From contig PXRT01000013.1 in the NCBI GenBank assembly GCA_003020925.1, positions 146,520-210,519 of the forward strand: DNA of 64,000 bases, given 5' to 3'. Source of the DNA: Halobacteriales archaeon QS_6_64_34 (GTDB lineage: Archaea > Halobacteriota > Halobacteria > Halobacteriales > Haloarculaceae). The notes beneath the pieces are model-generated. The model made no database searches and was not told the origin of the DNA. It saw only the letters and a list, made by a program, of their open reading frames with translations. Both the position numbers and the translations under genes were made by a program. Below, piece by piece: positions 140-63,284 of the stretch (position 1 is its first letter; every line of letters starts with the position of its first letter).

Positions 140-219
140 TACGGTCGGTTGTAACGATTTACCGGTGATTTGCCGAGGCGGGACCGGCAAATCACGGAAA
201 TGGCTTCCAACCGACCGTA
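140..219. mobile_element. 80-bp palindromic MITE-like element, copy 1
   Basis: TIR TACGGTCGGTTG/CAACCGACCGTA; flanked by direct repeat TCA (137-139 and 220-222); same length as the copies at 18373 and 29931. Confidence 0.85.
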
Positions 220-15202: not shown

Positions 15203-15361
15203 AGGGGGGCTCGCTGCGCTCCTCGGCCTTCGGCCTGTGGTGCTTACGTCGCCCGCCTTCCCGAAGCCAGCCACCGGGAGAGCGAGCTCTCCCGAGCAGT
15301 CGAACGGAGTGAGTGAAGCGCGCAGCGAGTCACAGTAGTCGAGCGGTCGGGGGCTTTCTGG
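15203..15361 (+). repeat. Degenerate family-A repeat copy
   Basis: Shares ggggggctcgctgcgctcctcggccttcggcctg...cagtcgaacggagtgagtgaagcgcgcagcgagt..gtcgagcggtcgggggctttctggct with the copies at 53664 and 63057. Confidence 0.8.
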
Positions 15362-15520
15362 CTGTTGCTCGTCGTGGCGCTGCTTACGACCCTGGTCCCC
15401 GACCGCGCCCCGGCGGGCGAGGGCGGGCTCGTGCTGGCGCTGGTCGACCCGCTACGTCCTGACCGGCGCCGCGCTCTACCACCGGACCGGCGATATCCCC
15501 GGCTCGCTGGCCCAGTGACG
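15362..15520 (+). pseudogene. C-terminal remnant of a membrane protein, frameshifted and truncated at the repeat
   Basis: Frame a: LLLVVALLTTLVPDRAPAGEGGLVLALVDPL; frame b: YVLTGAALYHRTGDIPGSLAQ* with no start codon context. Confidence 0.4.
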
Positions 15521-18302: not shown

Positions 18303-18372
18303 TTGTTTCTGGATTTGGTGGGTTCGGGACGGCATCTGTCTCTCCGACGGTGTTTCTTGACCGTCCCTTTCA

Positions 18373-18452
18373 TACGGTCGGTTGTAGATTATTTCCGGCG
18401 AACGTCGACCCCGGGGTCGACCTTGACCGGTAAATTGCTACAACCGACCGTA
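18373..18452. mobile_element. 80-bp palindromic MITE-like element, copy 2 (inverted relative to copies 1 and 3)
   Basis: TACGGTCGGTTGTAG...CTACAACCGACCGTA? right arm GCTACAACCGACCGTA; central GTCGACCCCGGGGTCGAC; flanked by TCA (18370-18372, 18453-18455). Confidence 0.88.
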
Positions 18453-18498
18453 TCAGGCGGTACAAACAGTCGGCACCGCGAACAGAACTGGCTGCTAG

Positions 18499-29683: not shown

Positions 29684-29777
29684 ACGCTGATTGTGGTGGG
29701 CTGGCCGCTTCAAAGGCAGGGCTGCTAGGAACTGTTGCAGTTAGTTGCAATCGCGAGATTACTACGAGTGTCTACCG

Positions 29778-30119
29778 CCAGAAAGCCCCGAGCGGCTACG
29801 GTCCCGCGACTCGTTGCGCGCTTCACTCACTTCGTTCGTTGCAGTGCTTACGTCGTCGGGGTTCCCGTAGCCGCTCGCCCCTTTCAGCCCCACCCATGCC
29901 GGCTGGTCAAGCAGCGGCGGGTGGGACTGATACGGATTATTGTAGCGATTTACCGGTATGTGCCGACCCCGGGGTCGGCACAATCCGGAAATAATCTACA
30001 ATAAACCGTATGAAAGGGGCGGCGGGCTGAACGACGGCGGGCGACGCAAGCGCTGCAGGGAGGGTAGCGACCGAAGCGCGCAGCGAGCCCCCCGAGTTCA
30101 GCCCGCCGGGGCTTTCTGG
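29778..30119 (+). repeat. Dispersed repeat family B, copy 1 (259-bp unit interrupted by the 80-bp element plus 3-bp TSD)
   Basis: ccagaaagccccg...cggggctttctgg termini; 342 bp minus 83 bp = 259 bp, the length of the uninterrupted copy at 35083. Confidence 0.88.
29931..30010. mobile_element. 80-bp palindromic MITE-like element, copy 3, nested in repeat B
   Basis: TACGGATTATTGTAGCGATTTACCGG...CCGGAAATAATCTACAATAAACCGTA; central GTGCCGACCCCGGGGTCGGCAC; flanked by TGA (29928-29930, 30011-30013). Confidence 0.92.
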
Positions 30120-30210
30120 TGGTTCAAAGTCCACAAGTTGCCGTGCGTAACGCTTGCGTCTGTTCCTCGCTTCGAAACGCACAAGCGGGGGCCTCGCAAA
30201 CCCCAGTGCA

Positions 30211-35073: not shown

Positions 35074-35082
35074 CGCAAACGG

Positions 35083-35341
35083 CCAGAAAGCCCCGAGCGG
35101 CTACGGTCCCACGACTCGCTGCGGTCCTCACTCACTTCGTTCGTTGCGGTCCTTGCGTCGTCGGGGTTCCCGTAGCCGCTCGCCCCTTTCAGTCCCGCCC
35201 GTAGCCGGTTGGCCAAACAGTGCTGGGTGGGACTGAAAGGGGCGGCGAGCTGAACGAAGGCGGGCGACGTAAGCACTGGAACGAACGAAGTGAGTGAAGG
35301 GCGCAGCGAGCCCCCCGAGTTCAGCCCGCCGGGGCTTTCTG
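35083..35341 (+). repeat. Dispersed repeat family B, copy 2 (uninterrupted, 259 bp)
   Basis: Same termini and internal sequence as 29778-30119 with an empty insertion site gggtgggactgaaaggggcgg. Confidence 0.88.
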
Positions 35342-35425
35342 TCTGTTCGCGATGTATCCGATACCGGAGGTTGCTGCTAGTCGGGTTTCTGAATCCTTTT
35401 ATTCGCGTGACCACTCCCTACGGGT

Positions 35426-53663: not shown

Positions 53664-53890
53664 GGTAGTGTTTAGTTTAGTAGAAAACGCGGAAGAGAGT
53701 CAGAAAGCCCCGGCTGGCTTCGGTCGGGGGGCTCGCTGCGCTCCTCGGCCTTCGGCCTGCGGTGCTTACGTCGCCCGCCTTCCCGAAGCCAGCCGCCCCT
53801 TTCAGTCCCACCGCGCAGCGAGTCGCAGTAGTCGAGCGGTCGGGGGCTTTCTGGCTGGTGACAGTCTAAATCGCCTAACTAAACACCACC
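53664..53890 (+). repeat. Dispersed repeat family A, complete copy (227 bp)
   Basis: Terminal inverted repeat ggtagtgtttag...ctaaacaccacc around a cagaaagcccc...ggggctttctg core. Confidence 0.85.
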
Positions 53891-63056: not shown

Positions 63057-63284
63057 GGTAGTGTTTAGTTTAGTAGAAAACGCGGAAGAGAGCCAGAAAG
63101 CCCCGGCTGGCTTCGGTCGGGGGGCTCGCTGCGCTCCTCGGCCGTCGGCCTGCGGGCTCGACGTACGAGGCGACGCAAGCACTGCAACGAACGGGGTGAG
63201 TGAAGCGCGCAGCGAGTCGCAGTAGTCGAGCGGTCGGGGGCTTTCTGGCTGGTGACAGTCTGCATCGCCTCACTAAACACCACC
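63057..63284 (+). repeat. Dispersed repeat family A, complete copy (228 bp)
   Basis: ggtagtgtttag...ctaaacaccacc termini and core as at 53664-53890. Confidence 0.85.

Follow-up and report, generated by a model that had tools for sequence, protein, structure and literature searches.

An 80-bp palindrome nested in a host repeat, repeat B, of this haloarchaeal DNA (the window, a stretch of 64,000 nucleotides analysed as a whole) is probably a non-autonomous, MITE-like element, fixed in size (78-81 bp; 80 in this case), that folds as one hairpin and is moved in trans. We put the probability of this reading at about 0.78. The element occupies one copy of repeat B, the corresponding site in another copy is empty, and two further copies of the element lie elsewhere in the window. 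These features, all on the plus strand, are as follows.

29778..29927, +: repeat B copy 1 (host repeat), left part, which appears to predate the 80-bp element
29928..29930, +: target duplication TGA, left copy
29931..30010, +: 80-bp hairpin element (TACGG...CCGTA), left arm with TTGTAGCGATTTACCGG, right arm with CCGGAAATAATCTACAA, central palindrome GTGCCGACCCCGGGGTCGGCAC
30011..30013, +: target duplication TGA, right copy
30014..30119, +: repeat B copy 1 (host repeat), right part
35083..35341, +: repeat B copy 2, the same site empty (gggtgggac-TGA-aaggggcgg)
140..219, +: further 80-bp copy, subfamily TACGGTCGGTTGTAACGATTTACCGG..., with TCA at 137-139 and 220-222
18373..18452, +: further 80-bp copy, subfamily TACGGTCGG..., inner polarity reversed, with TCA at 18370-18372 and 18453-18455

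Alignment of the two repeat B copies (29778-30119 and 35083-35341) showed a single clean 83-bp block, as the original prediction had stated, which reads TGA-[80 bp TACGG...CCGTA]-TGA in copy 1 and is represented by a single TGA in copy 2. The sum 342-83 = 259, offered earlier in support, came out partly by luck, because a 1-nt indel at column 121 of the alignment happens to be balanced by where the last base was set. The boundaries proposed at that time, 80 bp plus TGA, were right, but it had been too strong to say that two copies fix them without guessing. The block has 3-bp identity at both edges, so that the repeat B pair alone allows four registers, among them 80 bp with a TGA duplication, 82 bp with a 1-bp duplication, and an 83-bp unit beside TGA.

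The boundaries were settled by the wider population of copies. Equal TNA triplets were found on both flanks of 134 of the 152 flank-unique candidates (TGA/TGA 67, TCA/TCA 62, TAA/TAA 4, and TTA/TTA 1); all four middle bases were represented, and T and A were invariant. The direction of the triplet with respect to the inner polarity of the element was free (68 vs 47). Since both flanks covary regardless of polarity, the triplet is part of the target, and the data confirmed an element of 80 bp (29931-30010) with a TNA target duplication. As the outer T and A never vary, duplicating just N (1 bp) within an obligatory TNA target is formally equivalent; 3 bp is the conventional reading. Rebuilt empty sites showed a palindromic preference, G-N-C-T-N-A-G-N-C, in the stop-codon and intergenic classes alike. 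An 83-bp unit ending in TGA, inserted 3' of a TGA by a single-strand mechanism (IS200/IS605, PATE, REP/RAYT) with no duplication, would be compatible with the two-copy alignment, and the 80-bp sequence is a hairpin with conserved unpaired bases, as in such elements. However, the middle base varies in concert on both sides (TGA, TCA, TAA, TTA) and the triplet faces either way, against insertion in one direction; on these two grounds the IS605-like unit beside TGA was ruled out, and we regard single-strand insertion as highly improbable.

Related genomes were compared at the same locus. In the orthologous repeat B copies of genomes G002 and G025 exactly the 83-bp block was missing and TGA was present once, the aligned pieces overlapping by exactly TGA; the unoccupied alleles that had been suggested as a check were thus found. 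Four copies in the host genome were 100% identical over 86 bp on different contigs with unrelated flanks. In the Halomicrobium-type genome G102, two insertions lie about 1 kb apart, and both sites were empty in its sister G103, with 3/60 and 0/60 mismatches across the two sites. These comparisons of sequence support the earlier claim that the palindrome is mobile, going well past the two-copy evidence offered for it, and the element has apparently been active recently.

Repeat B itself was absent from the window locus in most other species, which argues that repeat B is the older of the two; the best explanation is that the 80-bp element joined it later, probably in the lineage of the window's genome. 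Precise excision could in principle also create empty sites, and a single empty allele gives no direction. PIF/Harbinger elements, for example, excise precisely with one copy of the duplication (PMC2836001), so an element ancestral to repeat B might have been lost with one TGA from copy 2 and from the related genomes. Yet copy 2, G002, and G025 are all empty, and the same 80-bp sequence stands in many unrelated flanks. With three empty alleles at the window site in addition to these flanks, insertion is favoured over excision, and an ancestral element is hardly credible, the more so as the repeat that should have lost it is itself missing at the locus in most species.

The distribution of the element also fits a mobile sequence of MITE-like kind. 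About 40 places in the host genome (G000, 2.2 Mb, 80% complete) matched it completely or partially, and the stretches around these matches were analysed. Copies were found by the dozen in many species of the host genus and in other Haloarculaceae genera. Exact matches to the arm motif reached 116 in one genome, while control matches were 0. Copies were patchy among close species, with zero in many. A pattern scan of public genome contigs detected copies in Haloarcula mannanilytica, amylolytica, sebkhae, and rara, and in several Halobacteriales MAGs. More distant relatives of the element were present on plasmids of Natrinema, Halomontanus, and Natrialba magadii (Natrialbaceae) and of Halostella (Natronoarchaeaceae). 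Phage records gave no match to the element. When viral contigs were scanned for the arm pattern, 67 stretches came up, almost all of them with a single match, and these were taken as chance.

The element is non-coding, with inverted termini and a hairpin along its whole length. Folded as DNA, the 80-bp strand forms one long hairpin of -28 kcal/mol (z = -8.3, 0/200 shuffles as good). Different genera share the left arm, TTGTAG-CGATTTACCGG, and TGTA(A/G)CGATTTACCGG was present in most copies from outside the family; TGTAGCGATTTACCGG is an arm sequence of the element. Between genera the differences lie in the central palindrome and in the inner part of the right arm, and the outer ends are TACGG or TAGTG. 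Length was nearly invariant (78-81 bp) while the core differed by genus. When segments of 40-160 bp were allowed in a scan of the fetched loci, 135 of 137 TNA-flanked segments with inverted ends measured 76-82 bp, a result biased for this first family, for which the loci had been chosen, and not for a second family described below. Two variants of the usual structure were observed. The copies at L232 (G102) and L236 (G103) are orthologous and occupy the same site with the central core in opposite orientation, so the core may invert between the arms. Half-elements, consisting of one arm or of one arm and the core, stand directly behind TGA at L034, L035, L038, L040, L044, and L045, all in the host genome; they may be decay products or may be retained for a function.

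Repeat B belongs to a multi-copy family of imperfect palindromes of about 260 bp, bounded by CCAGAAAGCCCCG...CGGGGCTTTCTGG. Within the window it occurs at 1-105, 15204-15397, 29774-30125, 35079-35348, 53664-53890, and 63057-63284; almost all of the 32 genomes from the genus carry it, and diverged forms were found on plasmids of many other haloarchaea. The target gggtgggacTGAaa(a/g)gg in repeat-B-like sequence was occupied at three places, L001, L046 (G007), and L180 (a halite MAG), and the repeat-B palindrome may be an insertion hotspot. Palindromes of 78 bp (TACTGCCGGCTGTAA...TTACAGCCGGCAGTA) form a second family, unrelated to the first, with the same TNA duplication and in the same size class; its copies lie at L015:2734-2811, L032:1940-2017, L036:1473-1550, and L043:207-284, and on Haloarcula and Halomicrobium plasmids. 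Two more groups of palindromes of about 80 bp (TACGGGTCGACAGAAG... and TAGTAGAATTTGAAAG...), in different flanks, were seen at L066:656-734, L066:1968-2046, L161:4934-5013, and L185:963-1042, and may be further families of this size class.

Next to the element itself, we looked for its mobiliser. Arm searches in the host genome (80% complete), the host genus, G102, and plasmids, together with a scan of all fetched loci, gave no autonomous parent; the arms listed in G102 were paired at the 79-bp length only. The transposase search covered two Pfam families, PF01609 and PF13359. None of the 30 PF01609 loci in ten genomes had matching ends, the elements there having other ends, several with duplications of about 8 bp, and no PF13359 gene was present in 24 genomes. 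The only long-range pair with true family arms, at L317 and 2.1 kb in length, was rejected as a parent, since it proved to be a different IS that had entered one copy of the element. At this locus (L317:1042-3155, G102) the copy is split by an IS with a PF01609 transposase and the ends GAGGGTGTCATAGAAC; this IS in turn seems to contain another transposase gene.

We infer mobilisation in trans, and the following steps are proposed. The enzyme would be a transposase, most likely a DDE one, that cuts the two strands of the target with a 3-bp stagger spanning T-N-A. The same enzyme would bind the two arms, the left one through the conserved CGATTTACCGG motif, and join both ends. The insertions themselves lie either at sites at which the duplicated TNA restores a stop codon (TGA or TAA) or elsewhere in non-coding DNA. 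The DDE assignment comes from the duplication and the palindromic target; the searches above gave no matching transposase.

The relation of the insertions to genes was also analyzed, with genes called by a simple codon-usage caller, our own script. The duplicated TNA was the exact in-frame stop codon of a gene in 73 of the 134 copies (54%), and 0 copies lay inside called genes. The expected coincidence, with non-coding sites weighted according to the preference seen at intergenic targets, was 15% (p ~6e-26); this and the following p-values are approximate, insertions shared by descent having been collapsed by flank similarity only. Positions 1-60 nt behind stops showed no enrichment. The excess at stops was seen within the motif-matched classes CTGAG (68% vs 22%, p = 3.5e-10) and GNCTGAG (69% vs 36%, p = 8e-4), while at the few full-motif sites it was not significant (79% vs 54%, p = 0.15). 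It held, too, for gene pairs in convergent orientation, in which promoters play no part (35:8 vs 73:96, p = 6e-6). In RefSeq-type annotation a gene ended exactly on the duplication in 6 of the 11 annotated plasmid copies inspected (L318, L320, L323, L325, L327, and L329). The stop bias stems partly from the target consensus GAC TGA G, which reads aspartate and stop. The motif alone does not account for all of it, given the excess in motif-matched classes and between convergent genes, and the remainder may reflect targeting or selection.

The coincidence with stop codons bears on two other readings of the palindromes. They might mainly be a host device, such as a terminator, an mRNA 3'-end structure, or a protein-binding site, selected at gene ends, with mobility accounting only for their arrival. 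The 54% placed exactly at a stop, convergent genes included, would suit such a role, as would the one arm motif kept across genera and families and the persistence of insertions common to several species (for example L056/L059/L065 and L049/L051). However, stop-associated copies were equally frequent before tandem and convergent neighbours (33 vs 35), close species differ in having any copies at all, and the preferred target by itself favours Asp-TGA-G stops. Rfam, in addition, gave no match above the gathering score within the window. We consider a host device improbable. The other reading is that these are distinct, fixed-length (78-81 bp) hairpin transposons of Halobacteriales, whose unrecognised enzyme reads TGTA(A/G)CGATTTACCGG and actively targets stop codons, the stop being rebuilt and the gene left intact; this is rather unlikely. 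For the MITE-like element that we prefer, landing on stop codons would allow a mobile sequence to live harmlessly in a gene-dense genome.

Within the literature collection searched there was no description of the 80-bp family, the nearest being the small mobile repeats of Haloquadratum walsbyi. These comprise SMR-A and SMR-B of about 110 bp and HqIRS41 of 80 bp, and reportedly have inverted termini, no related transposon, no target duplication, and an enigmatic mobilisation (PMC3119063). The 80-bp element resembles them in being very short and multi-copy, with prominent inverted termini and no known related transposon, and, like them, it is nested in another palindromic repeat, SMRs often lying in other mobile repeats and palindromes (PMC3119063). 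Its non-coding length and its termini, unrelated to known transposons, agree with the SMR definition, but the clear 3-bp TNA duplication of 134 copies does not, a distinction drawn from the published SMR description.

With haloarchaeal and bacterial MITEs the element shares its short, non-coding sequence, inverted termini, target duplication, empty sites, and copies throughout the genome. It differs from them in its near-invariant size of 78-81 bp, its almost wholly palindromic sequence, and its coincidence with stop codons. No parent with the same termini turned up in the arm searches or at the 30 PF01609 loci. A T-N-A duplication is made by the IS1031-type group of the IS5 family. The termini TACGG and TAGTG are not known from PIF/Harbinger or IS1031-type families. 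PIF/Harbinger DDE elements (Tourist MITEs) have a 3-bp duplication inside a 9-bp extended insertion preference, as does the 80-bp element (PMC2836001). In contrast to PIF/Harbinger and IS5-type elements, no DDE transposase with matching termini accompanied it, PF13359 being absent in the 24 genomes and the PF01609 elements seen having other ends. IS200/IS605 elements, PATEs, and REPs insert without duplication, in a fixed direction beside a fixed short sequence. The 80-bp element is, like PATEs and REPs, a non-autonomous hairpin in many copies, but unlike IS200/IS605, PATE, and REP/RAYT elements it duplicates its target and its direction is free.

The MITE-like kind is already known; new are the missing mobiliser, the fixed size, the conservation of an arm across families, and the stop-codon habit. 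A tiny element with exact boundaries, a 9-bp preference, and empty and occupied sites paired between sister species is a testable system, and it reopens the question raised in 2011 for Haloquadratum of what mobilises small mobile repeats.
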